This document shows, in pieces, positions 20,914 to 64,000 of a DNA stretch of 64,000 bases; within the stretch, counting starts at the first letter, position 1, and every line of letters starts with the position of its first letter. The stretch is from Loxodes magnus (taxonomy: Eukaryota; Ciliophora; Karyorelictea; Loxodida; Loxodidae), in contig CAMPDV010000235.1 in the NCBI GenBank assembly GCA_946699065.1, positions 124,001 through 188,000 on the forward strand, written 5' to 3'. The notes under the pieces are model-generated. The model searched no databases, had not been told where the DNA came from, and saw nothing but the letters and a program-made list of their open reading frames with translations. Position numbers and translations under genes: made by a program.

Positions 20914-23139
20914 TCAAGTGAGCGATAGAAACTAAATTCCTTTAATAAAAATTTTGCCTTCGTTAGCTTGAGAAGTGATTTCAATCTCTAATTCAATGAA
21001 TCCTACATTTTAAAACTTTTCTATCTTATATTATTTAATATTTTCCTTTTCTAGGTTTTCAGTTGCTTGTAATAAAAGCATGCTTTCTTATTATTCAGCT
21101 GGCATTCCACTTATTTTTAAATTGGTTTCTGCTTTTTCATTGATTTAGTATATGAAATTAGCTTCTATTATTACGAAAGGTCTTTTGAACAGAACTCTTA
21201 TTTTTAAATCACTTGCTAGAATGCTTTGCCCAAGCTATAGTGAACTGATTTTGTTAGTACTATGATTTTAAGTCAGTCATGCTTCTTCTATTCAATCTTC
21301 TTTTACTTCTAATAATTAACCACGTTCACGGAATTAAATGCTATAGTCCCAAGCTCTTAATCCTTTTAACTGATTTTCTTACTAAGACTTGGCTTAGAGA
21401 GTGAAGTATTCATACTAATACCCTTGTGATTACTAATTTCAAGAAAACCACTTTCCTATCCATTTATCTTATAGAGCTACAATGTAGTAGAATCCTGAAA
21501 AATTCCAATTAAGATCATAAGATTAAGTGAAGAACTTAGGTGCCATCATTATAAATCCCTCTTACTCCTTTCACTAGTAAGTCCTAAGAAACTCCATATC
21601 GTTTAGCTAAACCAAGCAATCCTTGATGTTTTAAAATCACTCATGTGATTAATTAAACTTCCATCCTTCAATATAAGTTCTTATTTTCTGAGACTATAAG
21701 TCTTTGACAGTAATTCCTGATAATTAGGTATCATTCTAGAAGAGGATTATAATATCCACTTTGATTATGAAATCACTTTTATCATTTAATTACTCTCCTA
21801 CTAGAAAAGTTATTTAGTTCTGATTACTCTTCTCCATTAGAATTACGTTAGTTTTATCTTTAATATAAATAACTCTTTAATGAAGATACTAAGCTATTAG
21901 TATCTATTAGATAATACACTTTCAGATTACGTACTAAATACTCAGAAACTTATCACTTTTATTGACAAGGATTAAGCTTTATTTACCTAATCATATTCTT
22001 TCTGAAAATCCTTAGATATAATTGACTTCCTATAATTTTTTAGTTGCTTCTTTTAATGGCAACTATTGAATTGTTAATGTACTATTATCACAGTTCTATG
22101 ATATAAGATTATAAAATTGAGTAATCAAAAATAAATTGAGGAAGCTTATAACTTGATCTATATTGTTTCAAAACATGCTAGTTACATAAGAAAGATATAA
22201 CTAACTAAACTTCCATATCTCTTACTCCATCTAAGCTTACATACAACAACAAGACACTTGTATAGTTATCTTAATTTAAAATACCTCTTAGGTACTAACT
22301 AGTTGCTATATAACTTAAATATGTAAGTTTATTATAGTTTTAAGGCTAAAAAGAATCTACTTTTAAACGAATGTTAGAGACAATTTTTTACTTAGATAGT
22401 CAGTTCTTTTATTACTAGTAAGCTATGAATAAAGCAGCTTTTTATGAATACTAGGATATTAAAAAGAAGGGCTTTACTATTAACTTCTCTAATTACAATT
22501 AAAGTGTCATTTCTTAGTAAAAAACTACATAATGCTTGTCTGATAAGTCTGTACTTTATTAGAGTTCTACTTTCCTATGGTTTCCTAATAGTAGTTTTGA
22601 ATAAACTTTTGCTGAGATCTGCTTCCAATGCTCCCAGTTCTTTTGATACGGATATAATTAAAAGCTTATTCACTTGAATACCCTTTGAATTTAATCAAAT
22701 AGCAAGCAATTATGGTACCAGTTCTACCTAACCCTGCATGGCAATGAATATAGATTTTCTTTTTGTTCCCTGCGATGATTCTTTGCATTATTTCTACTAT
22801 TTAGTTAGCTTTCTTAATAGAAGGCGCTGTCAAATCCTACCAGTTTATGTTGTAATACTCTATACCTACTTCTTTCAAATCTTGAGGGTCATATGCAAAT
22901 CCAGTTTCAAGTAAGTCCGCACAACTTGAATGTTCTAAAGGGTACTAAAGGTTAAAAATAGCTCCAATATTAGCTTCTTAGAATTGCTCAATTATAGAGT
23001 GTTTTTAAATAAGTTACTTAGTCAATCTTTATCCAGCTATAATATCAGGAGTAATTCAATCAGAATGCAGTCCTTTAATAGCAGTATTAGAAGGATTAGA
23101 GTGCTACTTATAATCTTCCCACTTGCAATACTAAATCAT
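20914..23139 (-). CDS. PTPDC1: PTPDC1-like protein tyrosine phosphatase
   Basis: Cysteine-dependent dual-specificity/tyrosine phosphatase of the PTPDC1 family (animal members are linked to cilia; that role here is inference). 741 codons plus TGA, close to the roughly 750 residues of human PTPDC1, in one continuous frame. The catalytic loop HCHAGLGRTG has nucleophile Cys133 and Arg139. Upstream blocks AIKGLHSDWITPDIIAGQR, AIFNLQYPLEHSSC and YYNINWQDL (general-acid Asp region) follow family order. The Trp in HSDWITP is TGA, and many Gln are TAA/TAG. The start at ATG 23139 (MIQYCKWEDYK) is chosen because the family domain begins right after it; an upstream extension is possible. The stop is TGA (20914-20916) after FLSLT. 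The C-terminal 500 residues are less conserved, with no motif I recognise. Confidence 0.85.
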
Positions 23140-23705
23140 TTATTACAAAAATCAGTTTAAACAAAATTTAAAATCAAGCAAGTATTTAAATCTAATTAGC
23201 GCTTATAATTATACTTTCAAATTGAACCATAAAACAGAAATTAATTCAAGCAATCAAATAAAGACACTATTAAGAACTATAAGACAGTGTAGATTATAAG
23301 CAAGAAAATTCCAATGAAAGGATCACTGTTTGTTAAGAAAATATTATTAGTCTGCTTAAGAAATCATTATATAAACGAGACTGCTGTGAGTATGATTCCA
23401 CCATTAGATAAACGTTTGTAGACCTTGGCTTTCATTCTTATATATAAAGTATTCTAATTTGCTAATAATTCAGTCTTAATAACAATAATCAACTAAAATT
23501 ATTTTCTCAAGGTATCTTTTATATATTTTATAAGCTAGCTAGATCAAAGGGTTTTAAATATAAAGTAATGGATATAGTTACGATATAAATGAACCTTAGA
23601 AGTGGTTAATAGATTTATAACTAAAGAGTCTTTTAATCAGCTAAGTTAATTTGCATCTTAGCATGTTTATTTAACTTAAAGTAGCTCATATTAATCATTC
23701 CATAT
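23140..23705. other. Intergenic region upstream of the phosphatase gene
   Basis: AT-rich, no gene seen. It should hold the phosphatase promoter and the left edge of duplicated block B. Confidence 0.4.
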
Positions 23706-25084
23706 CTACTAGAAATACCCTAGAACCATTAGATCTATTAGACTTCATTACTAGTCACTTAGTTGAAATTATAACCATTCATAATCCTAAGCAAGTAGTT
23801 TCTCTATTTACTTAGAGATTAGAAATAAAAGTATGAAGAGCAAATTGAAGGTTTGGTAATTATTTCTATATAAGAACCCACATATTTAGTACCTTAATTA
23901 GTGGTAATCTTCAGATAACTTGAGCAATTACTCAGAATGCAATCATAATAGCTTAATTGTACGCTAAGTTTACTAGTGTCCAGAAATCTAACCAAAGAGG
24001 TTAAACTTACTAGCTGCTCTTATAAAACAGAGTAACAAAAGTTAGACTAAAGCAAGATATTTTTTAATAAGTTAAAAGGTTTTTAATTATCTGGTAGAGT
24101 ACGAACTATCACATTAAACCAATTCTATGCTTATTTATTTACTATACTCACATAAAAGAGTAAAGCAGATAATAATTACTATTAAATGACTCTATAATTA
24201 TAACTAGCGATTAAATTTAAGATATATAGTAACTAACATCAATAAGTAGAAGAGCTAAGCATAATTTGGGTGATTTAAAGAATTAAGCTACAATACTAAT
24301 AATGAACTTTAAAAGCTTACATCTTTATTACTCAGATACAAACTTAATTTAATTTAATAGTCATTGAAATGCTTTAATTTAAAATTGGCAATTAATGGTG
24401 ATAATAAAGACCAGTTTAGTATGTTATATCTAAGATTCACAATATACAAGATATAAGAAAATAATGACAAATAGAAATCGCCGAAGCTAGAGTAGGTTAA
24501 ATAGATACCCTTTAAAAAAGTTAAATAGTTAATGCTTTAAAATTCCTATTAATACCTCTATAAGCCATCATTGTCCTATTACGATATAAATATTTAAGAT
24601 TATACGTTAAAGCAGACAACCAAATAACTTCTCTTAAATGACTCTATTAGAATATATATTTAAGCTTATTTTAAATTTCTTAGCCAAACACTACTTTACT
24701 CTTTATATTTGCTAGCCTTAAACCAAATAAACCATATACTCAAAAAAGAGATTTGGTATAGAAGTGAGGCTTTGCCAATAGTTTAAAATTATCTCATCTC
24801 TTACAGTAGATTAAGACATATTTCTAGTTAAGTTACTATAATCGTTTTTTAAATTAGATAAGCATGGTTGAAAGTAAAGGAGTCTGACTAAACAAGAAGC
24901 TTAATGAATGAAAAAAATGTTAAATCAATAAATAACAAAAGCAATCTTATAGATATAGGATTTAGTCTTAGTAGCAAGAATTTAAATAATTGATTATTAA
25001 AAAAAAAACATAAATATATAATTTACGCGCAGCCGAAAAGAAAAAGGAATCAATAAAAGAATTAAAAAGAAGAATTTTTTAAAT
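23706..25084. repeat. 5' flank of duplicated block B (matches 1-904)
   Basis: Copy of window bases 1-840 up to about 24913, with extra sequence at about 23819-24380 that block A lacks or has in altered form. The part nearest gene 3 (24914-25084) is diverged and lacks the insertion found at 905-1330. Confidence 0.75.
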
Positions 25085-28000
25085 ATGGATGAGATAGAAA
25101 AAGTTAAGGAAAACTTTTCTAGTTAGAATTAAAATACTTCTACATATGAAGATATCGATTAAACAAGATAGAGCAGTTTTGCTTAGAAGCTTAACTTTGC
25201 AAAGCAAGATATAAAATCTAATTAAAGAGAATAATAAAGAAATATAAAATTAGAATAGGATCATAAAGGAAAAAACGTTAGTTCTTATTTTTTAAGAAAC
25301 TTGAAGGTAAAAACTGAGTCTGATCAAGAAAATAATAAGTAGGATACTGGAAATAAAAGAAGTAAAGTAAAAATTTTTACTTAATGAAATGAAAACGAAA
25401 ACAAAAATAATAATAATATTTTAAAAACTGAGAGCATCAGAGAAGAGTTTACTCCAAGTAGTGATAACTCCACAAAATAGAAAATTTTGAATCATTTAAA
25501 TACTTAAAAATCTCTTGGATTTGAAAAATATAGAAAAGGTTTCGAAGCTACTTCTCGAGGTAATATTCTGCTCGCTCAAAATCATCATCAAGCTAAACTC
25601 ATCAAAAAAATCGACTTCGAAGATATCGAAAATAATGAGTTCTGTGATTGTTGTGGACTTCCTGTCGAAGGCGTTTCTTACTCCATCAAATGTAATGTCG
25701 ATGAATTCGCTGATTTCGGAATCGGTTTCAGTCTTTATTTCATCTATCTCAAGTTCGTCATCATTCTCCTCTCTCTAGCGTTCCTTCCTTTCGGTTTAAC
25801 CATGTGAATTTTGTGTATCTAACAAAATGGTTATAAAGAAGAAAATCTGACAAAGGAATATATCTTCTAGCTTAGAAGTAGTATAGGTAGTTATGTGAAG
25901 AACGATAATAACGAGTAACTTCCTATTTATTTTGGAGTTTTTCAACTTCTAAACTTGATAATAATGATAATCTCAGTGATAGTGTTTAAGTGATACTGTT
26001 AAAAGAAGGAACTAGATATCGATTTGAAGTTCGTATAACCTAAAGATTATACGATATGATTGAAGAATTTACCGAATGGAATAAGTAAAGAGTAGTTAAA
26101 GAGGTATTTAGAGAAGAAAGGAAGAGCAGATGGGAAGAAAAGCGAAGTAGTGAAGATAATATTTCCGATAAAGCTTGATAAGTATATGAAGTTAGTGAAC
26201 AAATATAAATAATTATAGTTAAGAAAGACAGCGTTGGAGATAAGCGAGAAGAGTAAGGAGAAATGAAACAAAGAGAAAATTGAAGAAATAGAGGAAATAG
26301 AGAAGAAGTTATAAGAGATATAAGAAGAGATAAACAAGAGCGAGAACTAGACTTAAATATAATAATCAACAACCAATTAATCTTTCATAACTTTCTAAAC
26401 TCAATAAGATGCTTAATAGGTAAGGAAGAATTTTAATAAAAATTTAATCAAAAGATTTTTTAGTAATTTGAAGCTAAATGCTTATCAAATAATTTAGAAA
26501 AAACAGATTTAAATAAATAAAAATTCGGTCTTTTCTCAAGATTTGTCTAATCCAAGTGATATATATTGAGAAAATTTAGGTATTAGTTTAGGTAAAAAAT
26601 TCAAATATGCAGCTTTTGTATGGGCTGCAACTGCATGTGTTTTAGTAGGAGGGATTTATTTTTTATTTTATCTTAAAAACATTCTGAATTAGAAAAATAG
26701 AAAAGAAAGTACATTTATTCAATCTGATGAAATTTATCAATCATTTATAATTTGAGTGATAAATTGATGTTTGAATATTGTACTAAGTTATTTGAGTTCA
26801 TTTCAAAAACATGAAACTTGAACCGAGTTTACTTCGAGTGTAACTAGGAAAATAACCATTTCGTAGAGTATTGCTTCTGCACTTTTAATTTTACTAGTAG
26901 AAACGGAAGTTGCTGAATGATTTACGGAATTTGACTTAGCTACTGGTATTTTTAATATCCTCTTTACTTTCGCTTTCGTTTCTCCCTTCATCTCTCTACT
27001 CAATCTTAGTCAAAGATACAAATAAATTAAAAGACTCTGAGTTTCTCTTTTCATCAACAAAATCTATTACTCCCAAGCTTAACTCAACCTCCTATATGAA
27101 GATCAACAGTTCAATGTCATCACTAACTACTCTCATATCAACAAAACTCTCATCACTACTCTCACCTATGTCTCCATCCTACCTTTCGCTTATCTTATCA
27201 CTCTCATCGGTTTCATCGTCAAATACTGAACTGACAAATACATGTTCATCTCTTCTAGTAGACCTTTAAGTCTGGGATCTCACCTTAACAAAAGTATGGT
27301 CGAACTACTTTCTTATTTCCTTTTGATTTACTCAGTTTCATCTTGAATATTTTACTATAGATTGAAGTAAGAAATTCAATACTTTATGATAATAGGAGTA
27401 ATAATAAGTCTAGCTTATTTGGTATTTCCTGAGAAAGTAGTGTTTCAAATGTGTTAGATTAGCAAGCTAAAGGTATTTGATGAGATGTACTAATCGAAGT
27501 AGTACGAGTATGAGTAGAAAGCTATTCACTTTGTAGAGGTAACGTTTAATACAGGACTATGATAGAGTGAATCCAATAACGAGTGCTGAAGGATGGAACT
27601 GATTTTTTTAATTACAACGTAAGTTTATATAAACAGGAAGTGTAACACTTGAATGAGACAGATCCAAGTATAGATATGTAACAAATGAACCAATCATAAC
27701 TTCAGTGTTTATTAAATTACTCGTTGAACAGAGAAACGATAAAGAAGAAGTTCAATAGAATGTCTGGTCCTACTATCTTACCTAATTTAAAAAACTTTTT
27801 TACTTAGAAAATCATAAAATCTGTTAAGAAAAGACTTGATTTTGGAAGGAGGTAATTAAACGAGCTGAATTAACTTGATGAAATCATAATAAGAAAGAAT
27901 TAAACTTTAGACTAGCAAGTTCTAAAGAGTTAAAATACTAAAGAAAATAATAGAGGATTTGAGAATTTTAAGAAGCTTTAGAATGCTTTCATGTTTGAAC

Positions 28001-28584: not shown

Positions 28585-28726
28585 ACTAAAAACTTAGTTT
28601 AAATAGTTAATATAACAGTCTACAATCCAATTTAGTTATACTTTAATCAATATTCAACAAAGTGTAAATTTAAAATAAGAGTCATTAAAATAAGTCAAGG
28701 CATTTATTTCTTATTTCTCGTTAAAA

Positions 28727-31700
28727 ATGTAAATAAGAACTAAAATATAAATCACGAATGCAAACCTTTAATCTCAAGCTAACACTTCAGAAGATCTGCT
28801 GATTGAAGAGCCAGATAATTTGAATACTTCTATTAAAGATGAGAAATCAGAGCAGTAGAAATAATAAGTAATTGAGAGTAAAAGACTGCCTATTGTTAAA
28901 ATATTTCCTTTGTAATTAAAAGTTGAACATACAGAAGAAAATTAATTAAGCGAATAAATTTAAAATGATAAAGACAATTAAACCAATTAAGAAGAAACAG
29001 TACAAATAAAGGAAAATAAGATTTAAGCTTAAACTTAGATCAGCTAAGCAAATAATAAATTTCAAAATAAATTAAACTAAAAGATTGAAGTTAATTAAAT
29101 CTTCAAAAACAAAAAAACTAACGTCAGCGAAGCCGAAAATAAAATTATGAACAATCTCAAATCTTAAAAATCGCTTGGATATGAAAAATATAGAAAAGGT
29201 TTCGAAGCTACTTCTCGAGGTAATATTCTGCTCGCTCAAAATCATCATCAAGCTAAACTCATCAAAAAAATCGACTTCTAAGATATTGAAAATAATGAGT
29301 TCTGTGATTGTTGTGGACTTCCTGTCGAAGGCGTTTCTTACTCCATCAAATGTAATGTCGATGAATTCGCTGATTTCGGAATCGGTTTCAGTCTTTATTT
29401 CATCTATCTCAAGTTCGTCATCATTCTCCTCTCTCTAGCGTTCCTTCCTTTCGGTTTAACCATGTGAATTTTGTGTATCTAACAAAATGGTTATAAAGAA
29501 GAAAATCTGACAAAGGAATATATCTTCTAGCTTAGAAGTAGTATAGGTAGTTATGTGAAGAACGATAATAACGAGTAACTTCCTATTTATTTTGGAGTTT
29601 TTCAACTTCTAAACTTGATAATAATGATAATCTCAGTGATAGTGTTTAAGTGATACTGTTAAAAGAAGGAACTAGATATCGATTTGAAGTTCGTATAACC
29701 TAAAGATTATACGATATGATTGAAGAATTTACCGAATGGAATAAGTAAAGAGTAGTTAAAGAAGTATTTAGAGAAGAAAGGAAGAGCAGATGGGAAGAAA
29801 AGCGAAGTAGTGAAGATAATATTTCCGATAAAGCTTGATAAGTATATGAAGCTAGTGAACAAATATAAATAATTATAGTTAAGAAAGACAGCGTTGGAGA
29901 TAAGCGAGAAGAGTAAGGAGAAATGAAACAAAGAAGAAATAGAGAAGAAGTTATAAGAGATATAAGAAGAGATAAACAAGAGCGAGGACTAGACTCTAAC
30001 AGAATAATCAACGACCAATTAAGCTTTCATAACTTTCTAAACTCAATATGATGCAAAGTAAGTGCAGCAAAAGTTTGAAGTTAGTTATTTAAAGAAGTAA
30101 CTGAAATCGATGAAAATGTAAGTAAATTAGTGATTCAATAAAAAATCTCCTAATTTTAATTTTAAGTATATCATTTTTCGTGAATCTCCTGATCCAAGTG
30201 ACATCTATTGAGAACATTTAGGAATTTAACTAAAACAAAAAATAAAATATTATGTATTAGTTGGATTTTTAACTAGTTGTGTACTTCTGTTAGGAATTTA
30301 CTCTTTGTACTTTGTAAGAAATAGGTTAAAAAACTCTAGTAATAAAAGCGGATTTGAAAGACGATTAGAAGAAGGATATCAATCTTTGATAATTCTGGGA
30401 ATAAATTTTACTCTAATAAATCTTTTAAGCTATTTAAGTGCTCAATAGAAACATGAAACATGGACTGAATTCACCACAAGCGTTACAAGAAAGTTAACTT
30501 TAGCCGAAAGTTTGGCGTCTTCATTAATTATCCTTCTTTTAGAATCAAACTCTAATGAATGATTTACAGAATTTGACTTAACTACTGGTATTTTTAATAT
30601 CCTCTTTACTTTCGCTTTCGTTTCTCCCTTCATCTCTCTACTCAATCTTAGTCAAAGATACAAATAAATTAAAAGACTCTGAGTCTCTCTTTTCATCAAC
30701 AAAATCTATTACTCCCAAGCTTAACTCAACCTCCTATATGAAGATCAACAGTTCAATGTCATCACTAACTACTCTCATATCAACAAAACTCTCATCACTA
30801 CTCTCACCTATGTCTCCATCCTACCTTTCGCTTATCTTATCACTCTCATCGGTTTCATCGTCAAATACTGAACTGACAAATACATGTTCATCTCTTCTAG
30901 TAGACCTTTAAGTCTGGGATCTCACCTTAACAAAAGTATGGTCGAACTACTTTCTTACTTCATTTTGATTTATTCAGTTTCATCTTGAATATTTTACTAT
31001 AGATTGAAGTAAGAAATTCAATACTTTATGATAATAGGAGTAATAATAAGTCTAGCTTATTTGGTATTTCCTGAGAAAGTAGTGTTTCAAATGTGTTAGA
31101 TTAGCAAGCTAAAGGTATTTGATGAGATGTACTAATCGAAGTAGTACGAGTATGAGTAGAAAGCTATTCAATTTGTAGAGGTAACGTTTAATACAGGACT
31201 ATGATAGAGTGAATCCAATAACGAGTGCTGAAGGATGGAACTGATTTTTTTAATTACAACGTAAGTTTATATAAACAGGAAGTGTAACACTTGAATGAGA
31301 CAGATCCAAGTATAGATATGTAACAAATGAACCAATCATAACTTCAGTGTTTATTAAATTACTCGTTGAACAGAGAAACGATAAAGAAGAAGTTCAATAG
31401 AATGTCTGGTCCTACTATCTTACCTAATTTAAAAAACTTTTTAGGCTAAAATAAAGTAGTAACAAATCTTAAGTAGCAACTAAATTTTTGTATAGGATAG
31501 AGAACTTAACTTGATTAGTTAGACAGGATAATTAAAAGAAGTTCATAAGTTTCAGAATAAGAGCTATTAAACTAGACAGATTTAGATTAAAGCTAAGTTG
31601 CTAATAAGAAGCTTTCTATATTATAAAGTGCTTCTGTCTATGAACAAATCGCTCAAAAGCGAAAAACAATAATTTAGATGAATAATCAGAATTTTCAAGA

Positions 31701-32181
31701 AAAGTTACAAAATATAACTTTAGGAAATTATCTACAAAGCTAAGTTCAGAAGGCTAATGACATAAATCATTTGATGAAGCATTTTTTTGTAAAAAATAAA
31801 TCTGCAGAAGCTGAGATTTTAAAGAAAGGCAATAAAGAAGATTTAAAGACATTCCTTGCAGAGAGAGAAGGTAGTAAAATTTTCAAATAAACCCCATAAT
31901 ATATTTGACCTCATAATAATATGAAAGATAAAGAGTTAAGTCCAAATTATAAAATTTAAAAATTAAAATCTTAGCAAGAAATTTTAATAAGAAAATAAGC
32001 AACTTCATAATTTTGATAGAAGCAAGTTTTGTCTTTCGTTGAAGAACTTGAAAATGAAAACTAAGAGACATAGCAAAAAGTTGAGGAAAAATAAAATGAA
32101 GATAATAAAGTTGACGAGTAATAAAAGCCTGAGATTGAAGTGATTAAAACCACATTTAAGATTGAGAGTGTTGTTCAATGA
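28727..32181 (+). CDS. OSCA/TMEM63 (CSC1/DUF221)-like multi-pass membrane protein, gene 4
   Basis: Intact homologue of broken gene 2. From ATG 28727 (MQIRTKIQITNANL), after removing the 16-nt intron 31181-31196 and the 22-nt intron 31261-31282, 1139 codons run in one frame to TGA 32179-32181 (...FKIESVVQ). The head is long, acidic and Q-rich (residues 1-150). The conserved core starts at YEKYRKGFEATSRG. Then come CDCCG, the membrane helices, the RRM-like DYTIWLKNLPNGIS domain, ESPDPSDIYWEHLG, and the pore-side membrane cluster. The segment between the RRM-like domain and FDLTTGIFNILF differs strongly from genes 1 and 3, while the sequences on both sides are almost identical, a mosaic pattern. 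It lies about 140 bp after gene 3 in the same direction. Confidence 0.75.
31181..31196 (+). other. 16-nt intron (gene 4, intron 1)
   Basis: GTAACGTTTAATACAG. Removal is required for the frame that ends at TGA 32181. Confidence 0.8.
31261..31282 (+). other. 22-nt intron (gene 4, intron 2)
   Basis: As in gene 1. The length sum (38 nt for both introns) makes the whole gene a multiple of three. Confidence 0.75.
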
Positions 32182-37422: not shown

Positions 37423-38030
37423 TCACCTTTCAGCTATAAATTTGAAAAATTTCAAATATCTATAAAGTTCTCCTTTCTCTAATAATATATAAATTTCCAT
37501 CAAAAAATTCTTGCTTTCTTCGTAAACTCTTTCCATTACTCGATGAAAAGAAAACTGTTGTTTTGCGTCAGATTGATCTCCAGATTTTTCTTCTTATTTT
37601 ATTTTCTCGGTTTCAGACATTTCCGTCATAGTGTCATCAATTTTTGCAAATGACGTTTATTTTTCTAATTTCTATTGGCTTTAAAATTTTTTTCTTTTCA
37701 CTATTTTCATTGTAATGCAATCACTTTATTAAGATTCTTGTCGGATTTATTCCAGTTTTCCCTCAATCTTTGTAATAATTTCTTCTTGCCTCACCCAGTT
37801 ATTTTCGTCTTGTTCTTGCAAATTTCAAATATCTTTTTCCATTATTCAAACTCTTTCTCTAACCATTTTTGTCCTGAAGTATTTCTAAATTTATCGTCGA
37901 AGTGAAGTTCATCATCTTAAATGTGATTCTCAACATCTTATTTTGTTGCATTAGATTTTAAGAATAATATATTATATCTCTTTTCTTTATTAAGAATAAC
38001 CTTTATAATAATTATTTTATAAGCAGCCAT
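37423..38030 (-). CDS. Unknown charged protein of about 202 residues; one frame break
   Basis: Minus-strand frame from ATG 38030 (MAAYKIIIIKV) through DDELHFDDKFRNTSGQKW and EKEFEQWKK. A one-base frame change follows at an A-run (plus strand TTTTT, 37834-37838), after which it continues as QEQDENNWVRQEEII, KIDDTMTEMSETEK and FLMEIYILLEKGELYRYL to TGA 37423-37425 (...FIAER). With one extra A the gene is exactly 203 codons. It is charged and probably partly helical, without a recognised domain. The break may be a sequencing error in a homopolymer, a real mutation, or frameshifting. The first 40 residues are the least certain. Confidence 0.5.
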
Positions 38031-38094
38031 TTTCAAAAAAGCCATACTATATTTGAATCAAGAAGTCGATTGCAATATAACTAGAAGAGTTATT

Positions 38095-43312: not shown

Positions 43313-46300
43313 ATGAGCATTAAATAAGCAGATCAAATAATCAAGTCATAAGACTTATTCTTATGTGTTAATCAGGAAGAAAATAATGCTGATAACTTGA
43401 TTGTAGAAAACCTAGACTCTTTTTTCCAGAATTAGTAGCCTGAAATAAAGCAGAAGGAGAATATTGAAAGGTAAAATGGTTAGCTAAATGACTTTCGAAT
43501 TGACAGAGATAAGGAAACATTTATTAAGTAAGTGACAGTCTAAGAAAGTAAAGATAAAGAGCTGATGATTAAAAGGTTTAAATCGTAAAATATTTATGAG
43601 TTTAAGACCAATAAGTTTAGCAACCCTAAGAAAATAAATACTTAGAAGGAATAAATTAAGGAACTCTTGAAGGATATAAGGTTAAGCTCAAAAAGCAATG
43701 CAAAGAGTTAAATTTTGAGTAATTTGCAAGTAGAAAAATAATTTGGCTATGAGAGTTATAAAAAAGGATTTGAACCTACAAGTAAAGGAAGTATAAAGCT
43801 AGCTTAACTACATAATCAGGCAAAAAAGATTAAAAAGATCAACTTTGAAGATGTTTAAAATAATACATTTTGTGATTGCTGTGGGTTTCCTGTTGAAGGA
43901 TAGAAATATAAAATCACTTGCAATGTTGATGAATTCGCCGATTTCGGAGTAGGCTTTAGCCTCTATTTTATATATCTAAAGTTTGTCATTTTTTTACTTC
44001 TTTTAGCTTTTCTTCCCTTTGGATTAATAATGTGAATCTAATGCTTCTAAAGGGAGAGTTCACTTTTACAAGACATGGGCTTAGAAACAAATTTTGAAAT
44101 CAGAGGTAGCATAGGAAACTATATTGCTGATGAAAATGATGGGCAGCTTCCTACATACTTTGGAATATTCCAGCTGGTAATAATAATAATAATGATGATA
44201 GCAGTCACCATTTTTAAATGATACTGCTAGAAGAAAGAATTTGATATAGATTTAAAATTCATTTAGCCAAAAGACTATACTATATGACTTAAAAACCTAC
44301 CAAATGGGATTACTAAAGAATAGCTATTGTCTTTTATAAGTAGCTTTGAGAACGAAAAAGATTAGAAGAGATAAGTAGTGAAAATGTTGTTTCCTATTAA
44401 ACTTGAGAAGTATATGAAACTAGTTAGCTAGTACAAAAAGCTTTAACTTAAGAAAAAAATCCTAGAAACTACCTAAGAAAACTCTAAGAAAGTATAGTGA
44501 TGTCTTTGTCAAGAAATTAGTTTGGAGCGGATTGAGAAGAGAATGAATAAGCTGTAGAATAAGATTAATCAAAGTTAGCAAAATGAGAGTTAAAACCTAT
44601 CAGTAGCAACTAACTAAGCTTTCGTTACTTTTTAAATGTAATTTGATGCAAAATAATTTCATAAGCGCTTTAATTATAATCCTTTATTTTCGTTTTGTAA
44701 GTCTATAAAATTCATTGCCTAGAAATGAATCAAAGTAGTGAGTCCTGAAATAAACTAAAACGTAATTATCTCACAAGCAACGCCAGATCCAAGTGATATT
44801 TACTGAGAAAGCCTTGGAGTAAATATAGGGGAAAAGTTTAAATACATAGTAGCAGTTTGGATTTCTACTTTATGCGTGCTAGTAGGAGGCATCTACCTTT
44901 TATATTACTTAAAGAAAGCTCTGAAGAAAGACAATCAGTAAAGAAACTCCAAAACCGTATTAGCAGAAATTTATTAGGCGTTTATCATTTTGATAATAAA
45001 CTGAATTCTAAATAAAGTTCTAAGTTACATAAGCTCGTTCTAAAAGCATGAGACGTGAACTGATTTTACCACAAGCGTAACGTAAAAAATAACTTTGACA
45101 TAAAGTTTTGCTTCTGCTTTTTTAATCTTATTAATAGAACGGAATGAAGATAATTGGTTTGATAACTTCAGCCTGGTCACTGGAGTCTTTCAAATATTAG
45201 TAGTATTTGCTGTAATCTCTCCATTAAAGACTTTACTTAATCTTAATCAAAAAATTAAGAAAATATAAAGACTTTGAGTCAGATGCTTGTAAGGCCACTT
45301 TTATTACACTTAAGCAAAGTTGAACCTGTTGTATGAAGACGAGCAATTTAATGTAATTTCCAACTACTCCCACATTAATAAGACTCTAATAACTACCTTT
45401 GTCTATGTTTCCATTTTACCATTTGCATATGTAATAACTCTAATTGGGTTTATAGTAAAGTACTGAACTGATAAGTATATGCTCATTAGATGTTCTAGCA
45501 GACCTTCAAGTCTAGGATCAAATCTAAACGAAAGCATGGTTTAACAACTTTCTTACAACCTCATTATATACTCAGCTTCATCTCTGATGTTTTACTACCG
45601 TTTGAACCAAAACATTCAATACTACATGGTTATAGGAACTATAATAAGCTGTGTTTTTTTAGTTTTTCCAGAGAAAAGAATATTCCAGAGATACTATAGG
45701 AACAAATACAAAATATACGATGAAACTTATCAAACTAAACAGTACGAGTATGAAACTAAAGCTACTCAGTTTATCGAAGTAAGTGCTAAGTTCAGGACTA
45801 TGATAGAGCATATCCTATAACAAGCGCAGAAGGATGAAACTGATATTTTTAAATGCAACGTAAGCTTTAAAATGTAGTTTAATAACTTGATTAGACGGAC
45901 CAAAGCTAAGCATTCCAACAAATGAACTAATCATTCTTATAGAGCTTACTGAACTACTCATTAAATAGAGATACAGTAAAGTAAAGAATTGATAGAATAT
46001 AAGGATCAAACTAACTTCCAAGCTTAAAAAGCATTTTTAGCTAAGGTAAAAAGAAAGAAATTAAGTAGAAAATAGATTTTGGAAAAGGGTAGTTAAACAA
46101 CTTAAACATACTCAACTAGATGATAAGCAGAAACTAAGCTATTATAGAATAATAAGTTTTAACCAGCTAAAATTTAAAAGAGAATTGCTAAGAATAGAAA
46201 AAATTCCAGCAGCTTCAAAATAATTTAATTTTTGAATAAGTTAAGCAGAAGTAAGAAACACTAAAACGAATCAACTTAAAGAATTCAAAGGAAGACTAAG

Positions 46301-46761
46301 AAAGTGCATTTGTTTCCTTAAGTAATTATTTGAAAGCTGGTTTGAAGTAGAATTCACAGGTCTTTATAATATTAAAAAGTTTCGTGACTCAAAAAGTTAA
46401 ATCTCAAAATTAGATTTTCAATCCTTCGCTCATGTCAAGGAGCGAAAACTTGTTTGAAAGTTAATAAAACGCTGCTTTGCATTACGATTATTCAAAATAG
46501 CATACGGAATAACAATCAACGTTGCCTATTACTCAGTAAAGTACTGAAAGAGATGTTCAAAATCAGTCATAAATAGACTCTAAATAAAAATAGCAAGAAA
46601 ATGCAATTTAATTCAGAAGAAAAGAATTCGAGAATTTCTGGTAGGAAAAAAATCCAGAAATTGAAGATTAATGATAAGACCTAAGGGTGAAAAAAAAGAA
46701 TAGACATGTTTAGTTTATTGATCCAAATTAGAGTTTAGAAGAAAATAAAGAGAACAGTTGA
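43313..46761 (+). CDS. OSCA/TMEM63 (CSC1/DUF221)-like multi-pass membrane protein, gene 5 (diverged)
   Basis: ATG 43313 (MSIKQADQIIKSQDL) to TGA 46759-46761 (...LEENKENS). After removal of introns 45779-45795 (17 nt) and 45860-45877 (18 nt) it is 1138 codons including the stop, in one frame. It has a Q/N-rich head to about 145, the CDCCGFPVEG motif, a membrane helix with DEFADFGVGFSLYFIYLKF, a second helix FQLVIIIIMMIAVTIFKW, and an RRM-like domain DYTIWLKNLPNGITKEQL. AFVTFQMQFDAKQF and ATPDPSDIYWESLG follow, in the order seen in OSCA/TMEM63 proteins, then a membrane cluster through YVSILPFAYVITLIGFIVKYW and a Q-rich tail. It differs from genes 1-4 mostly by silent and conservative changes, so all are under protein-level constraint. 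It is the best outgroup for the duplicated cassette. Confidence 0.75.
45779..45795 (+). other. 17-nt intron (gene 5, intron 1)
   Basis: GTAAGTGCTAAGTTCAG, with GTAAG donor, CTAAG branch-like centre and CAG acceptor. It sits exactly where genes 1-4 have a 16-nt intron of different sequence. Confidence 0.85.
45860..45877 (+). other. 18-nt intron (gene 5, intron 2)
   Basis: GTAAGCTTTAAAATGTAG. Same position as the 22-nt intron 2 of genes 1-4. The length difference of 4 nt is compensated by removal, keeping QLQQLDQTDQ aligned. Confidence 0.82.
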
Positions 46762-50604: not shown

Positions 50605-53600
50605 TCAACTATCTTTTGTGCTTTCATATCCTTTTTTATATCTTCGTCTTTCTAATTCTTCATTCACTTTCTGAATATCTTCTTTACTTAGGTTTTTATT
50701 GCATACAAAACATATTCTTCAAGTACCTATACATTCAAAACAAAGAACATGGTTACAACTTAGCAAAGATGTTTTTTATTCATTTTTTTTGCATTTTTAA
50801 TACTGGCATGATTATACTGCTGGATCTTTTTATAAGATATCTAAATTTGTTTAGCTTTAAATAATTTTATGGTATATTTAATAATCTATTTGATTTCATT
50901 CATGTTCTTCTAAGTAATTAACTAAATCAAAAGGAGTTAGTAAATGTATTTTTTTACATTTTTTACAATTAATTTCATATTAAACTTAGTTTATATTTTT
51001 AATCAATTTTTTTTATTTGTGTATTTTAAAAAGCTTATATATTAAGCATCCTTTACACAAATAACTATCACAATCTAGTTTTCAATGATCTTTATTTTAT
51101 TTTAAGCATTCCAAGCAAACATTTTCCAATTCTTTTTTTTATGATTAGCTTGTTTATTTCTTTGGTTAAAGTGATATTTATTGTTATTTTAGACTTTTTT
51201 TTTCCTAAATAATTTCTTTGTATTACTAATCACCAATAAATTCTTTGATCTTTAGTAAGGAAATTTTTTTAGCTTAGCAATTAGGACATTCTACTTAAAT
51301 GTTCATATCTTCAATAGTTATATTTCTGTTTATTTACTTAATGTATTATATTATACATTTTGCACAGAATTTATGTTCGCAGTCAAATATTAATATTTCG
51401 TTGTCAAATTATGTCTCAAATTCACAAGAATTAAGCTAACAATTATAAATAATAGTATTAAATTATATTTCAGATTCTGTTTAATTTTTAAAACTATCTT
51501 AATAACTTTTGTCGAAATCAATTTGATTAGTTTTGGTCTTAAGTTACTAAAAATTTTATTCTTTTGTCTAATCTTCTACTTATTTATTTTATTAGGCTTC
51601 AAATTATAACTATCTCTTCACACCTTATTCATAATATATTTATTACTATTATTTACCTATTAATGAAATTATATCATCCTTTTTTAAGTTTTATCTGCAA
51701 ACTTTGCAAGTAGGCTTTCGCACACCATCACATTCAAAGACAATATAAAGATTTTTTGTTTATTCTTTTAGATCGTTTAAAGCACATTCTTTACAAAATT
51801 AATGTTCACAATCAAATTTTATAATTTCCTTATTTTATTATTAATTTGTACAATTTATCATTTAACATTTTTAATTTACTTCCAATTTCTTTATAGGCTA
51901 TTTAACATTTTGGTTTTAAGCTTTAAGCTGACTTCTTAATTAAGCTTTTTTGTATTAAACATCAAATTCTTATTATCCTAGAATATTCTTAAAATCTTCA
52001 AGTTCTAAACTTTCGTAGCATTATTTGCAAGCAATAGGTCTATTTTCTTCTTCTAAAGTTACTAAATCTCCATTCGTTTCCTTTTTTAATTACGTTTATA
52101 AGCATTACCTGCAATAAATATGATCGCATTTTTTCAAAATTATTTATTCTTAGATTAATTTAGGATTTTTACACAAAGAACACTAAAATTAGGCACTTTT
52201 CTAATTTTCCTATTATTCTTGTATTTAGTTTTTCTAATTTTATTTTCTTTATTAATTTTATGCTTATTTTTTAATCAAATTGTCATAATATTATTATCCT
52301 AATATTTCTTAATAATCTGTTTTCTAAAATGTATATTAGCAAACGGAACACTGATGATGCTGAGACTCTATTAATTCTAATGAAATATTATATTATCCAT
52401 TATTTTATATTTTATCTATTAAACAGATTTTGCAAAATTTATGTGAGCATTAAAGAGCAATTATATCTTATTTTGATGTTTATGCTTTGCAATTAAGATT
52501 TTAGCAATTATTAGCTTACTTTTACTAAAATTCATTTTATGTCTTAATAATTTTTCTATTAATGGAAATTGGGTCACTTTATTTTGTTTCCTATACTTCA
52601 ATCTCATTTTACTTCTATTTCTAGGGCTAAATTTAAATTTACTATCTTTCTTATTTATGATTTTATCTTATTATTACTTAGTTAACATTTGGCTAAATCT
52701 ACTACTACTGCTTTTGATAAAACTCCTACAATCTTACTAAAGCATCTTATTCATATTATTCATATTTTTATTATCCTAAGATAGATTTTAATTCTTCTTA
52801 TGATAATGTTTCATTACATTTTAGGCAATTTATTTTAACATAATCTTATTCAAACTCGTATATATTCATTTTGCCTTATGTTTTCTTGCTTATAGTCTTA
52901 GAAAGGCATTAGTCACAAAAAGAATGCTTGCAATTAAGTTCTATAAGTTTTAATGTTTATCTATTACTATTACAAAATACATTAGTACATTTTGCCTATA
53001 CAAATTCCCACTCATTAAGTTATTAACTTTAAAGCTCTTTCTCTTATTTTCTTTTATTTACTTAAGTTTAGCTATCTTAAAATATTTCCTATCTTTCTAC
53101 TTTTTTTATATCATCAATTTTAAAAGTATTTTAACTTAATTTTTCTTCTTATAAATTTTTAAATTTTGAATTTTTTTAAATTCTTTATTTTTAGTTAGAA
53201 TTTACTATTAATTATCTTTTATCGCTTTATTTATGATTTTCTTACTTTTCTAAATCTATTTTATTTTAATCTTGCATTTTAACCTTAGATTGCAAAATTT
53301 ATTTTTACTGGTTTTTTATATTTTAATAACTTCGTTTTTGCTACTATTCAATATTATCTTTTTTTATTGAGTTTTTTAAATTAGAATTACTTATAATTTT
53401 TTAATCCTACTACCTTTAATTTTTATTCTAATCTTATTCTAATACTTATAATTAGTTTTTAAGATCTTTTATTAACTAATCTTTTAATATACTCTATGTC
53501 TCGAACTATTGAAGCGACTAAGAATTTATCGTTTTTAAGCTATCTATTTTTTCATTTTGTTCTTTCAGTCTAGTTTTTAACTCTTAATTTTCTTTGTTTA

Positions 53601-54327
53601 ACTCTTTACATTAAGAACAGCTAATTAGTCTATATTCTTAGAATCCAGATAAAATTTCTTAAATATCAAAAGACTGGAAGTTTTTTATCTATCTCTAATC
53701 AATTTACTTATTTACAGAGTCCAAAACTTCTTGAATTGCTTGATTGAAATTAATGGCTTATTATGAGGTTATATTTACTATCTAGTTTTCCTATAGCTCT
53801 ATCTTCTGTACTGTCTAGAAGTGTATAAAAAATTAGTCTAAAAACGCTTGCAAATCTTTTAGAAATTAAGTCCTTTTATGGAAGGCTTGCTTTCAATGCT
53901 TCAGTAAACATCTCATAACTTCGTTAAACTTACTTGATAAATCAAACTAGTAGCTTTTTATTCTATCCTATATTTATTACTTCAATTCTTTTCACTCTTA
54001 GCATTTCTATTATACTTTCAGAGACACACTTTTATATTACTTCATAAGCTATCCGATTTCTTAGATTATCTTTTGCTTTTGTTCTTCTTCCTTTCGGTTT
54101 TAATTTTGTAGTTTTTTGTATATTTCAGGGTTTATCATCTAAATTAGCCTGTCTTTTGTTTTACTAAATTTGTTTCTACACTTTACACAGTTAATCTGCT
54201 AATCTCTTTGTATTCCTTCTAAGCAGCATGCGTAGCATATAACATGTTTGCAAGGAATATCAATGGGAATGTGTTCTTCCAGCGTAAAAATACTTCCACA
54301 GTTTTCGCAGCTATCTCCTTCTTCCAT
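50605..54327 (-). CDS. Multi-RING zinc-finger protein (eight RING-like fingers), putative E3 ubiquitin ligase
   Basis: 1241 codons in one frame from ATG 54327 to TGA 50605-50607 (...ESTKDS). The N-terminal RING has C7, C10, C26, H28, C31, C34, C47, C50 (starting CENCG, centre CKHVICYAC). A Gln/Lys-rich, coiled-coil-like region follows to about 440. Then come seven RING-like fingers with the core C-x-H-x2-C-x2-C: 447-504 (CKHSFCDQC), 608-663 (CSHKFCKIC), 716-770 (CDHIYCRQC), 821-877 (CEHQFCKEC), 963-1017 (CEHKFCAKC), 1071-1124 (CDSYLCKGC, His lost) and 1174-1209 (CNHVLCFEC). About 14 residues after fingers 2-6 comes an (I/F)xGxQQ motif (ILGQQ, ILGQQ, ILGQQ, IGKQQ, FIGDQQ). A single RING usually recruits an E2 enzyme; this tandem arrangement is not one I recognise. 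Ligase activity is inference. Confidence 0.8.
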
Positions 54328-58365: not shown

Positions 58366-58381
58366 ATTATAACTATACTAA

Positions 58382-59214: not shown

Positions 59215-59230
59215 ATTATAACTATACTAA

Positions 59231-59877: not shown

Positions 59878-60768
59878 TCAAAGTATAATTAATTAGAGAA
59901 AAGTTTAACTGGATTAATTATCGTATTCTTCATGGTTTGGGAGGGGACTTTCTCTTTTTTCAGTAGGACTTAGATTTCGTTCTTTTTCTTTTTCATGGGA
60001 GGGAGATCTGCTTGCCGAATTCTTGTTGCTGTTGTTATTTTCCTTTGAATTCGAAGGTGAGCGCTGAGGTGAAGGAGATCTTCTATCAGACTTTATAGAA
60101 GGACTGCGTTTTTGAGAAGAATGCACAGAATTAGATCTTGAGCGAGATCTTGATCTTGATCTTGACGATCTTTTATTATCACCATGAGTTCTTCTATTAG
60201 GCGATGGAGTTCGTGACAGACGACAATCACGTTTCATATGACCTTTTTCATTGCATCTAAAGCATCTAATGCTTTTAGATTCTCGGCATTAATTAGCCCA
60301 ATGTCCAAGTTTGTTGCAGTTAAAACATTTATCAGAAGAAGAAGGACCTCTCCTTTCACCTCTTTCCTCACGTGACGATCTTTCGTTACGATCTTTATCT
60401 CTTTCCTTATCGCGATCTTTATCTCTTTCCTTATCGCGCTCTTTATCTCGGTCCCTCTCGTTATCGTAACGGTCATTTCGATCCCTCCTTCTTTCTGGTT
60501 CGCGATCATACCTCTTTCCTTCTGCTTTCTCAACTTTTAGTCTTGAACCATCAAGAAATTTTCCATCCATATAATGTATAGCATCTTATGCATCTCTAGA
60601 ATCAGAGAAAGTCTGTATTATATAGATTACAATAAAAGCATAGTGATTTTTCACTTCGATATCTTTTACTCTTCCGTATTTTGAAAACTCCTTCTCTAAA
60701 GTTTTCTTAGAAGTCTGACTTGCAATTCTTCCTACAAACACTTTAGAACGACTTCTTGAATCAGACAT
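59878..60768 (-). CDS. SR-family splicing factor: RRM, two CCHC zinc knuckles, RS tail (RS2Z-like)
   Basis: Nuclear pre-mRNA splicing regulator by family. From ATG 60768: MSDSRSRSKVFVGRI, an RRM with RNP2 VFVGRI (about 10-15) and RNP1 HYAFI/TFS split by the 18-nt intron 60613-60630. An Arg/Asp/Glu-rich stretch with KERD/KDRD repeats (about 95-125) follows, then knuckles CFNCNKLGHWANQC and CFRCNEKGHMKRDC, then a Ser/Arg/Pro-rich RS tail. TAA encodes Gln in the first knuckle (NQC) and in DAQDAI of the RRM. One RRM plus two knuckles is like plant RS2Z proteins; animal SRSF7 has one knuckle. The end is either TAA 59914-59916 after EEYDN (278 aa) or TGA 59878-59880 (290 aa); I use TGA by analogy with the other genes. 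Confidence 0.88.
60613..60630 (-). other. 18-nt intron (SR protein gene)
   Basis: Minus strand GTAATCTATATAATACAG inside the RNP1 motif. Removal gives HYAFITFSDSRDAQDAI, a perfect RRM continuation. It is a multiple of three and has no stop under the altered code, so retention would insert six residues. Confidence 0.85.
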
Positions 60769-61859
60769 ATTTAACTATACCTAAAAAAAGTCAAATAACA
60801 TTGAACGAAAATTTTAAAAGTTCAAATTTTTGAATTTTCATACTCCTTTCAAAAAGAAAAGAAAGTAAAGCATTAGCTTCCTAGCTTTGTCTTTAATATC
60901 ACTATAAGTTTAAAGATACCTTCTACAAAGGGTTCTCTTTAATACTCTTTTGCTCTTATTAAAGCTCTTTAAATGCATATACACCAGTTAAGCAGGTTTT
61001 TTAATACAGGTTCTAGACTGATTGTAAGGTTATAGAAGGTGCTTATAAATAGATCTAGCAATAAAGTAAACTTTTCTAATTCCTTAATTTAACTTAGTTG
61101 CCTCATTAATATAAGAAATTAGCTAAGTAGCTGCTCAATAGAAAATGGCATTCGATATAGAGAGATGGGCCTCCTTATAACTAAGACTAATAATATACCT
61201 CATAATATATATCCTTTTACCCATCCTTACCTATTTTATACAGACAGTCTTAGCATATATCTTAGTTAAAGAGAGTACTTATATGTATTCAGTTTTAGTG
61301 AGTTAGAAATTAAATTTCTAATTTATAATTAAATATATATCAGCTTAGTCTCTTAGTGTATTTAGACACTAAATCCATTCATTCTTGTAACAAAATAAAA
61401 ATTAAAGGTTGCTATTTCTACTTTTACTAGCTAGTGGAAAAAGAGTTTTATATAGTAAAATATGATACTTTGTCTATCTGTCAGTTTGTCTTAGTACTTT
61501 CTTTATAAGATAAAATAGCCTTTTAAGCAAAAACTATTTGAAAGCATTATTAACTCCTTTTTCTAGAGCTAATTACATATTAGCTTATCATACTTGCCAA
61601 TAACACTAAGAGTGGAAATTATCTAGCAAGAGACTCTAACCTTATCATATATATAGTATAGCTTGAACTTATGACAATAATGGTTTAAGTTCTGAATAAA
61701 GGTCATAAATAAAGCAGAGTTCTTTCTTATAAATATTGATATATCTGATCATAAGCATTTAAAAGGTTGAGTTTAACTATTTCAGTCTTTTATATTGAAT
61801 AACTGAGCTATTAATTTCTGTTAAGCATTAATTCATAATCCTATCTATTTTGCTATAAT
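60769..61859. other. AT-rich intergenic region between divergent genes
   Basis: Lies between the SR gene (minus) and the VIT-VWA gene (plus), so it should hold both promoters. No further gene recognised. Confidence 0.45.
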
Positions 61860-64000
61860 ATGTTTGCTTAGTTTATAGATAGTAGTAAAAATAGTTAGAG
61901 TAAGATACTTTTTGGTCTGAATGACAGAGTTAAAAAGTAATCCATTCCTCTTTAATCTATTTAGGTTAACTGCTTTGTACAGGACTCCTTTGTCAAGCTC
62001 TAGATATGTTAGACTTATTAAAATACTTTCGATTATCCACTTGAAGTTGAATATGTATTTCCTGTTTCAAGTGATGCCTCAGTTTCAAGCTTGCAAATTA
62101 AAACTGACGAAGGATTAGTGATAGATGCTGTGATTGAAGAGAAAGAAGAGGCTTAGGAGTAGTACTAAGATAATATATCTTAAGGCAATACTGCTTTTTT
62201 GGCTTCTTATGATAAAGACAATTCATCAGACAGAATGCTCCTTTATATTGGAAACCTGCAGCCTAACTAACACACTACTGTTATAATTACTTATATTGGA
62301 ATTTGTGCAATCGAGTAATCAAGCTAAGTGATCTTCATTCCTTGTACCTTCACTCCTAGTTATTAAGGGAAGAAAGAACTAAACTACATTTTGGGATAAT
62401 TATTTAGCCCCACACCAATTGATGTAGTAGACTAAGTTCCTTATAAAATTAGCATAGAATGCGATCTTTACTATTAGTAAAAACAAATCCTGCTTGCTGA
62501 ATGCCACAGTCATAAAATAAATACCGTGCAAGAGACTCCAAATCATTGGAAAATTAGCTTGGATTCTACTTAAGCTTATGTACCTGATTAAGATTTCGTT
62601 CTAAAATTCTAAACAGAAGACTAGTTCGCTCCTAAGTTTTTGATATAGAAAAGCAAAGACAACTAAATAGCTGGATTCATTTCCTTTATTCCATAATTAA
62701 GCTAAAAGTCAGATGGAACAGGAGAGTTTTTATTTGTATTGGATAGGAGTGGATCAATGTAAGGAACGAGAATCTAAATGGCTAAATAAGCAGCTATTTT
62801 GTTCTTGAAGTCTCTTCCAATGGATTGCAAATTTAATATAATAAGTTTTGGAAGTAACTATCAATTTATGTTTCCTACCTCTACTAAGTATACTGATTAA
62901 ACTTTAAACTAGGCAATTAACCTTATTCAAAACTTTTCAGCGGATATGGGTGGAACAGAAATTTTAAAACCTTTAGTCACAATATTCTAGCAACCGATAG
63001 ATCCAAACTTTCCCAGAACTATTTTCCTTCTTACTGATGGTGAGGTAAGTAACCCAGAGCTTGTAGTAAACAAAATTGAGGCCAATAGTGAAGAGTGTAG
63101 GGTTCATACCTTTGGTATAGGAGAAGGAGTATCAAGTTAACTTATAACTGAATGCGCTAAAGCAGGTAGAGGAAAGTCTAATTTCATAAAAGATGGAGAA
63201 AACATTCAATCTAAAGTAATAGAAAGCTTAAAAATGGCAGCTTAGCCTGTTCTTATGTTTGAAAGTATAGATTGGGGAGGATTAACAGTAGAACAAGTCC
63301 CTCAAAAGCCATCTTGCTTCTTTGCTAATGAGCTGACTTACTTATTCTTCTTCATGGAATAAGTTTAATAGCCAATTGCCGAGATAAAAATCAACTGTAA
63401 AAATACATAAATATAAGCTTAGAAATTCACTCATTCTGTTATTATTGATTTTGACTCTATTCAATCAGAAGATACTCTACATAAGTTAATTGCTAGATAC
63501 AAGATAAAAGAGCTTGAGAAAGATACTCAGAAAAATAAATAGACGATAATTTCTGTTTCCACTAAGTACTAAATACTCTCAACTTTGACCTCCTTCATTG
63601 GTAAGAAAACGAACACCAACCCTACTTAACAAGAAATGAAATTTATTAAAATTCCTATTTAGAAACCTAAAGATTATTCTTAGAGCTAACCATAACGCTT
63701 TTAAAATTAGTTTTCTTATCTTAACTAACAGCAAAGTTTGTTTTCAAATTCTGCTCAAAATTGCCAATTATCTTCTACTTAATTATTTGGATAACCCCAG
63801 TAATATTAATATAACTAAACAGTTAAGTGTTTTGGTAGACCTTCTCCCATCCAATGTCCATAAATCTAACCAGTCTAGCTTTAAAAATGTTCCTAACCAT
63901 AAATGTCGCTAGATTATTCCTTCAATTCTATAGGTATAATAAATAAAATCCAGCCATAATAATAAATGTAATAATAGAATTTCCGATAATGCAATACTTA
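61860..64000 (+). CDS. VIT and von Willebrand factor A domain protein, 5' part
   Basis: ATG 61860 (MFAQFIDSSKNSQSK) opens one frame to the window end (713 codons, no in-frame TGA). VIT domain (about 10-150): TYQNTFDYPLEVEYVFPV, EEKEEAQEQY and IGNLQPNQHTTVIITYIG. VWA domain (about 290-460) has a complete MIDAS: DRSGS (Asp295), GGTEI and LLTDGEVSNP. A Gln/Pro-rich tail begins at about 600 and runs off the window. VIT-VWA proteins are related to inter-alpha-trypsin inhibitor heavy chains, VWA5A and PARP4; many protist members are intracellular and of unknown role. Metal-dependent ligand binding is likely from the MIDAS. No signal peptide. Gln is often TAA/TAG and all Trp I see are TGG. Confidence 0.88.

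Follow-up and report, generated by a model that had tools for sequence, protein, structure and literature searches.

In the genes of the 64,000-nt stretch of DNA analysed here (hereafter, the window), which we infer to come from the macronucleus of Loxodes magnus, a karyorelict ciliate, UAA and UAG are read as glutamine and UGA as tryptophan, most genes terminate at UGA and a minority at UAA, and UAG is needed at no end seen; we put the probability of this reading, including the tRNA and eRF1 mechanism given below, at about 95%. The code itself has already been published, as the karyorelict code (NCBI table 27) of Parduczia (Swart 2016, PMC4967479) and Loxodes magnus (PMC11441545); the observation is real, was read correctly in the original prediction, and is essentially known. 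The part beyond table 27 as written is the apparent use of TAA as an additional stop in some genes. A code without a dedicated stop codon was confirmed from raw DNA, with transcripts not needed.

Stop codons within genes and at gene ends of the window

TAA, TAG, and TGA all occurred in frame within genes, as predicted. According to a self-trained codon HMM, TAA was the third most frequent in-frame codon (55 per 1000), and TAG, TGA, and TGG reached 20.6, 14.7, and 5.9 per 1000, respectively; on reading, the HMM had assigned some transmembrane exons to the wrong strand. A six-frame listing of the window comprised 191 overlapping ORFs. A search for rRNA against a plasmid collection gave two weak matches. 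The five TGA terminators named in the original prediction were all found in place, together with a candidate TAA terminator:

20914..20916, minus strand: terminal TGA
32179..32181, plus strand: terminal TGA
37423..37425, minus strand: terminal TGA
46759..46761, plus strand: terminal TGA
50605..50607, minus strand: terminal TGA
50605..54327, minus strand: multi-RING-like protein, a single frame with approximately 183 internal TAA/TAG/TGA codons, ending at TGA 50605-50607
59914..60768, minus strand: SR protein with RRM and zinc knuckles (Pfam PF00076 and PF00098)
60613-60630, minus strand: 18-nt intron of the SR gene, read by eye
59914..59916, minus strand: candidate stop codon (TAA) of the SR gene, from GC change and sequence

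At the five TGA ends, the GC content fell from 0.26–0.29 (120 bp upstream) to 0.10–0.25 (60 bp downstream), and the 20 codons preceding each end (n = 100) contained no TGA, two TAA, and three TAG. The RING matches of the multi-RING-like protein were all below the Pfam cut-offs. The SR-protein gene may end at TAA, where the GC content was 0.392 before and 0.233 after the codon; the next in-frame TGA (59878-59880) lies 12 codons beyond.

Two further proteins were assigned to domain families:

22480..23100, minus strand: dual-specificity (PTPDC1-like) phosphatase stretch (Pfam DSPc)
61749..63998, plus strand: protein with VIT and von Willebrand A domains (Pfam VIT and VWA, stops as X)

The phosphatase TGA at 23056-23058 (minus strand), within HSD-TGA-ITP, had been placed on a family-conserved Trp, and five aligned homologues of six carried W, W, F, W, and W there, i.e., Trp in four of five. 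A TAG in the same domain (22945-22947, minus strand) corresponded to Gln in 6/6 homologues. The VIT/VWA frame, the best-aligned gene in the window, reaches the window end without a TGA when TAA and TAG are taken as sense; a column test of its TAA codons on the best 120 of 1225 homologues scored 5.0 for Q versus 13.9 for S and E. A frame at 17643-18947 (minus strand), taken by eye for a reverse transcriptase, had no Pfam match above the cut-off, and five further frames likewise gave no Pfam match above the cut-off. The window also holds several tandem gene copies, partly broken.

Anoctamin/OSCA-like gene copies

Two diverged paralogues showed the following features:

29129..31180, plus strand: copy of an anoctamin/OSCA-like gene, a single long exon carrying 10 TGA and 29 TAA/TAG
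31181..31196, plus strand: 16-nt intron, shortly 5' of EGWNW (from alignment)
31236..31244, plus strand: W-N-W codons TGG AAC TGA (from alignment of copies)
43868..45778, plus strand: diverged copy of the anoctamin/OSCA-like family (compared part)
45779..45795, plus strand: 17-nt intron (from alignment)
45835..45843, plus strand: W-N-W codons TGA AAC TGA (from alignment of copies)

The claim that the paralogues encode a Trp of EGWNW with different codons, one with TGG and the other with TGA, amid silent changes, held for the compared copies, with TGG AAC TGA at 29-32 kb and TGA AAC TGA at 43.7-46.8 kb; a copy at 3.9 kb in the same alignment also carries TGG AAC TGA. The introns shortly upstream of EGWNW are GT..AG in both the 43.7-46.8 kb (17-nt) and 29-32 kb (16-nt) copies. 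Two frames overlap at EGWNW, and its interpretation as an out-of-frame reading was dismissed because the 17-nt intron settles the frame. Between the two paralogues, TGA sites were paired with TGA or TGG in 9/13 cases, and TAA and TAG sites were paired with TAA/TAG/CAA/CAG in 14/33 and 8/18 cases, respectively. TGA of the anoctamin-like gene stood opposite W in only 2 of 10 cases, in one of two distant homologues. The PHM7_cyt match of the 29129..31180 copy was slightly below the Pfam cut-off, and a PDB search with the anoctamin-like protein returned no match.

Residues encoded by the three codons

Stop codons were aligned to conserved residues in Ras-superfamily genes of the L. magnus genome (63 non-redundant of 90 loci), where a conserved column was one with a single residue in at least 80%. 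TGA fell on Trp in 27/27 conserved-column cases, TAG on Gln in 13/13, and TAA on Gln in 38/42. The Trp of WDTAGQ was encoded by TGG in 27 genes, TGA in 27, and other codons in 5, and the catalytic Gln by TAA in 35, TAG in 12, CAA in 6, CAG in 4, and other codons in 2. Generic column scores at TAA left Gln and Lys unseparated (K 200, Q 181, E 178); the same test misassigned CAA and CAG (to K and E) and is therefore a weak test for Gln codons. TAA as Gln at conserved positions, as originally proposed, stands in the Ras columns, but the zinc-knuckle ANQC and RRM positions lend it weaker support than had been claimed: to our knowledge, these are not Gln-conserved columns.

If L. magnus used the common ciliate code, with UAR as Gln and UGA as stop only, the TGA-bearing copies would be pseudogenes. 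The partly broken tandem copies in the window fit such a reading, but the 27 Ras cases of TGA at conserved Trp and the divergence between the anoctamin-like copies, which is greatest at third codon positions, make it scarcely credible. Table 27, as proposed for the window, with TGA as Trp, TAA/TAG as Gln, and TGA as the main terminator, is supported instead.

Terminating codons at anchored ends

Protein-anchored ends provide a direct count of terminating codons without transcripts. In 61 Ras-family genes, a C-terminal cysteine motif marked the end. When each end was scored by whichever of TGA and TAA came first in the four codons after the motif and TAG was left unscored, 48 ends were TGA, 12 TAA, and 1 neither; when TAG was also counted, the numbers were 45 TGA, 12 TAA, 3 TAG, and 1 none. 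Ran C-termini had TGA in 5/5 cases. TAA stood at approximately one-fifth of the anchored ends; therefore, the prediction of TGA as the usual terminator was right, but TGA as the only one would not be. Under table 27, UGA is the sole terminator, and the 12/61 TAA ends, identified by sequence only, therefore led us to class the code as table 27 with a minority stop-UAA.

The coding score was −0.41 bits/codon after anchored TAA and −0.44 after TGA, versus +0.49 after 143 internal TAA codons, and the sequence 3' of the 12 anchored TAAs looks like a 3' UTR. It is nonetheless conceivable, albeit unlikely, that UAA never terminates and that these 12 genes encode extended proteins or have other ends. 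UGA was called the only stop in the 2024 L. magnus paper (PMC11441545), a TGA directly follows the TAA in L078, L107 (one of the 12) has a slightly positive downstream coding score, and the CCKN-TAA end is common to L105, L107, and L110, which are probably paralogues. Nor did TAA thin robustly before ends: its frequency over the 20 codons preceding the motif was 0.90× in all 65 motif loci (p 0.58, not significant), and the 0.55× seen in a narrower set (loci without TGA between domain and motif; cysteine codons included) was not robust. Against this, TAA lay within four codons of the motif at 12/13 non-TGA ends (P 8e-7, chance rate 25.5%), the GC content dropped from 0.290 to 0.196 across TAA ends, as at TGA ends, and the same CNVL prenylation box precedes TAA in L126 and TGA in both L104 and L115. 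The 2022 abstract of Seah reportedly allows for stop-UAA in a small minority of karyorelict transcripts.

A code of the Condylostoma type, with termination at all three stop codons as well, would accommodate the two that apparently terminate here, and TAG was the first such codon after the motif in 3/61 loci (L001, L002, and L023). However, TGA followed within three codons in all three, L032, which is similar to L023, has TGG at the position of its TAG, and none of the 61 anchored loci had an end needing UAG. TAG was, moreover, enriched rather than avoided over the last 20 codons preceding the motif (38/1300 vs 97/7130 further upstream), whereas TGA was absent there (0/1300 in all 65 motif loci vs 84/7130). 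We consider termination at all three codons very improbable. Judging from these sequences, UGA (Trp/stop) and UAA (Gln/stop) are probably both truly ambiguous in L. magnus, with UAA ending 10–20% of genes and UAG encoding Gln only. If so, two ambiguous codons would explain the published depletion of UAA, and not UAG, before gene ends, and the L. magnus code would stand midway from table 27 to that of Condylostoma. The counts also suggest that models assuming UGA as the sole stop may overrun the ends of some Loxodes genes.

tRNA genes and proposed mechanism

Among 125 matched genes, the two tRNA-Trp(CCA) genes that were read completely (L131 and L132) had a 4-bp anticodon stem, with 27:43 mismatches of A.C and U.C. 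The activity of tRNAs of this kind is predicted from studies of Blastocrithidia and Condylostoma. Amplification of tRNA-Trp to 125 copies in competition with eRF1 was dropped as an explanation, there being no copy-number control. UAA and UAG would be read by Gln suppressor tRNAs, and eRF1 would prevail only close to the poly(A) tail, a role for poly(A) suggested by published work; the UGA avoidance observed here just before gene ends would follow from eRF1 winning only there.

Comparison with known codes

The L. magnus genes share with table 27 UAR as Gln, UGA as Trp or stop, and UGA avoidance before gene ends, and differ in that UAA apparently ends approximately one-fifth of anchored Ras-family genes. 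More than one ambiguous codon and a tRNA-Trp(CCA) with a 4-bp stem (PMC13092985) are shared with the Condylostoma magnum code (table 28); UAG terminates there, whereas no end needing UAG was seen here. In the Blastocrithidia code (PMC12153298), all three stops are likewise sense codons, UAA is dual, and tRNA-Trp has a 4-bp stem, but UAR encodes Glu and UAA is the sole stop. The window introns measured 16, 17, and 18 nt, compared with the published L. magnus mode of 17 bp (PMC11441545).

Residues encoded by the stop codons

The use of stop codons as sense codons in Loxodes magnus is genuine and was interpreted correctly in the original prediction, which had TAA, TAG and TGA all as sense codons and TGA also as a terminator. 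It has been published before for this species, and the element added here is a tally of genes that end in TAA.

A Ras-family search of the host assembly (7,843 contigs, 705,730,643 bases) scored 150 matches among 721 candidates, and every row among the matches listed carried an internal TAA, TAG or TGA. For the column test, 90 loci were reduced to 63 non-redundant ones, which were aligned to one another with the stop codons masked. At columns where one residue made up at least 80%, the stop codons aligned to conserved residues as expected from the proposed code: TGA to Trp at 27/27, TAG to Gln at 13/13 and TAA to Gln at 38/42 (the rest being Glu 2, Asp 1 and Val 1). The highest score for TGA was Trp (290.7; next Tyr, 86.5), likewise for TGG (Trp, 289.6), while TAA and TAG scored in the order Lys > Gln > Glu and CAA in the order Lys > Glu > Gln; the control assigned 55 of 60 sense codons (at least 5 sites) correctly, with CAA and CAG among the five misassigned. 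The WDTAGQ motif, found as searched in all but 4 of the 63 loci, had TGG (27), TGA (27) or another codon (5) for its Trp, and TAA (35), TAG (12), CAA (6), CAG (4) or another codon (2) for its catalytic Gln.

Judged by the column results for the VWA, phosphatase and anoctamin-like genes, the window by itself supports TGA as a Trp codon and TAA and TAG as sense codons, and makes a thin case for TAA as Gln. In the phosphatase (22480-23100, −), the TGA proposed to encode a conserved Trp indeed faced W, W, F, W and W in the homologues, and one TAG column was Q in 6/6 homologues; a clear Gln was absent at six other TAA and two other TAG columns. The VWA gene (61749-63998, +) was compared, with stop codons masked as X, to 120 homologues among the matches listed of 1225. 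All 42 sense codons with at least 4 columns were assigned correctly in this control; TAG scored Gln 9.6, narrowly above Glu 8.1 (15 columns), and TAA scored Ser 13.9, Glu 13.9, Lys 8.7 and Gln 5.0 (29 columns). To our knowledge, the zinc-knuckle and RRM positions cited earlier for TAA are not Gln-conserved columns.

Two anoctamin/OSCA-like copies (29-32 kb and 43.7-46.8 kb, +) were confirmed to encode the Trp of their EGWNW motif by TGA in one and TGG in the other, the frames agreeing past an intron located by alignment of the copies:

45779-45795, +, intron before EGWNW, 17 nt
31181-31196, +, intron before EGWNW, 16 nt

Introns of 16, 17 and 18 nt, read by eye in the window, agree with the lengths published for L. 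magnus (mode 17 bp, mean 19.3; PMC11441545). In the coding stretch 5' of EGWNW, the copies diverge chiefly at third positions. A TGA in either copy was partnered by TGA or TGG at 9/13 sites, and the partner was a codon that the proposed code reads as Gln at 14/33 TAA and 8/18 TAG sites. With only two homologues found, both distant, 2/10 TGA codons of the anoctamin-like gene faced W, in one of the two. At least five copies of this gene family, whole or broken, are present in the window, which also contains a 5.2-kb segmental duplication (1315-6495 vs 24980-30171, 92% identity).

A self-trained codon HMM, allowing any codon, gave coding-frame rates per 1000 of 55 (TAA), 20.6 (TAG) and 14.7 (TGA), near the background rates of 60.0, 24.2 and 14.4; it took the wrong strand for some transmembrane exons, judged by reading.

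Codons that end genes

The five TGA terminators claimed for the window (20914, 32179, 37423, 46759 and 50605) were all present at those coordinates. Many Rab/Ras proteins are closed by a prenylated cysteine motif, from which the C-terminus can be placed whatever the stop codon is. The sample of ends anchored in this way comprised 130 loci (128 non-redundant), of which 63 were without an in-frame motif, 4 were set aside for a TGA upstream of it and 61 were usable. When the four codons past the motif were scanned for TGA or TAA, TGA came first in 48 loci, TAA in 12 and neither in 1; with TAG also allowed, the first codon was TGA in 45, TAA in 12, TAG in 3 and none in 1. The TAG-first loci (L001 and L002, CCK-TAG-TGA; L023, CC-TAG-Y-V-TGA) all had a TGA within the next three codons. 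At the 3'-flank rate, the probability of at least 12 TAA among 13 non-TGA ends was 8e-7.

Across the anchored TAA ends GC dropped from 0.290 to 0.196; for the ends with TGA the corresponding values were 0.317 and 0.191. A codon score trained on TGA-ended genes and their flanks was −0.41 over the 20 codons after TAA ends (negative in 11/12), independently of the training set; it was −0.44 after TGA ends (47/48) and +0.49 after internal TAA (5/143), the TGA-end figure being not independent and the internal-TAA figure partly so. The CNVL box was followed directly by TAA in locus L126 and by TGA in L104 and L115, and EDEDL-TGA closed five Ran genes. Within the window, TAA 59914-59916 may end the SR gene (59914-60768, −), judging from sequence: GC goes from 0.392 to 0.233 across this candidate, and the next TGA is 12 codons further on.

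Seah 2022 is reportedly the source of the code for all karyorelicts, and is said to leave a stop-UAA possible in a small minority of transcripts. Titles and abstract openings of the papers listed contained no report of a stop-UAA in Loxodes or karyorelicts, nor did the accessible portions of PMC6935857 and PMC10553269. Parduczia uses UAR for Gln and UGA for Trp, stop and also selenocysteine, and all three codons were inferred able to terminate in Condylostoma (Swart 2016, PMC4967479); L. magnus has the code of Parduczia, with UGA named as the only stop (PMC11441545), and Loxodes is given UAR as Gln and UGA as stop (PMC6935857).

Codons before gene ends

Over the 20 codons before the motif in all 65 motif loci, including the four set aside, TGA occurred at 0/1300 vs 84/7130 upstream (p = 1e-6); in the set-aside loci, the last TGA was 33-56 codons 5' of the motif. 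Relative to upstream, the frequency of TAG was 2.15-fold, that of CAA 2.55-fold and that of TAA 0.90-fold (not significant), so the share of TAA among Gln codons went from 269/507 upstream to 44/135 before ends by arithmetic on this count, a thinning that is relative only. Another count, whose codons include the motif cysteines, gave 0.55 times for TAA. On re-check, the TAA thinning was weakened as side evidence and the count of TAA ends was unaffected. Published transcript data (PMC11441545) have UGA and UAA depleted over about 20 codons before ends and UAG not.

tRNA genes

A tRNA-Trp(CCA) pattern had 125 exact matches in the genome, and the reversed pattern, as a control, had 0. The 100 places listed of the 125 have one 30-mer in common, 48 on contig C67 and 52 on C148, mostly in tandem:

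G000 C67:482323-491201, tRNA-Trp(CCA) tandem array, spacing about 187 bp
G000 C148:155464-169421, tRNA-Trp(CCA) tandem array, spacing about 241 bp

The window itself has a tRNA-Glu(TTC) gene at 39656-39728 (−).

In the two tRNA-Trp genes whose full sequences were read, positions 27 and 43 (27:43) are mismatched and the stem has four good pairs; such a tRNA-Trp in Loxodes was already stated in PMC13092985.

Other features of the window

A single eukaryotic rDNA unit (8115-14159), with degenerate repeats at its edges, interrupts an anoctamin-like gene copy. Its left flank (7442-8114) corresponds to 30153-30826 at 97% and its right flank (14160-15252) to 30819-31916 at 96%. The rDNA of L. magnus has been described as tandem arrays, and this arrangement may be an insertion or a misassembly. 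The frame at 17643-18947 (−) appeared reverse-transcriptase-like by eye, and Pfam gave no match for it. An inverted pair of about 0.87 kb (36548-37399 vs 49117-49987, 76% identity) and an 8-bp tandem repeat with 58 perfect copies (57333-57797) were also observed.
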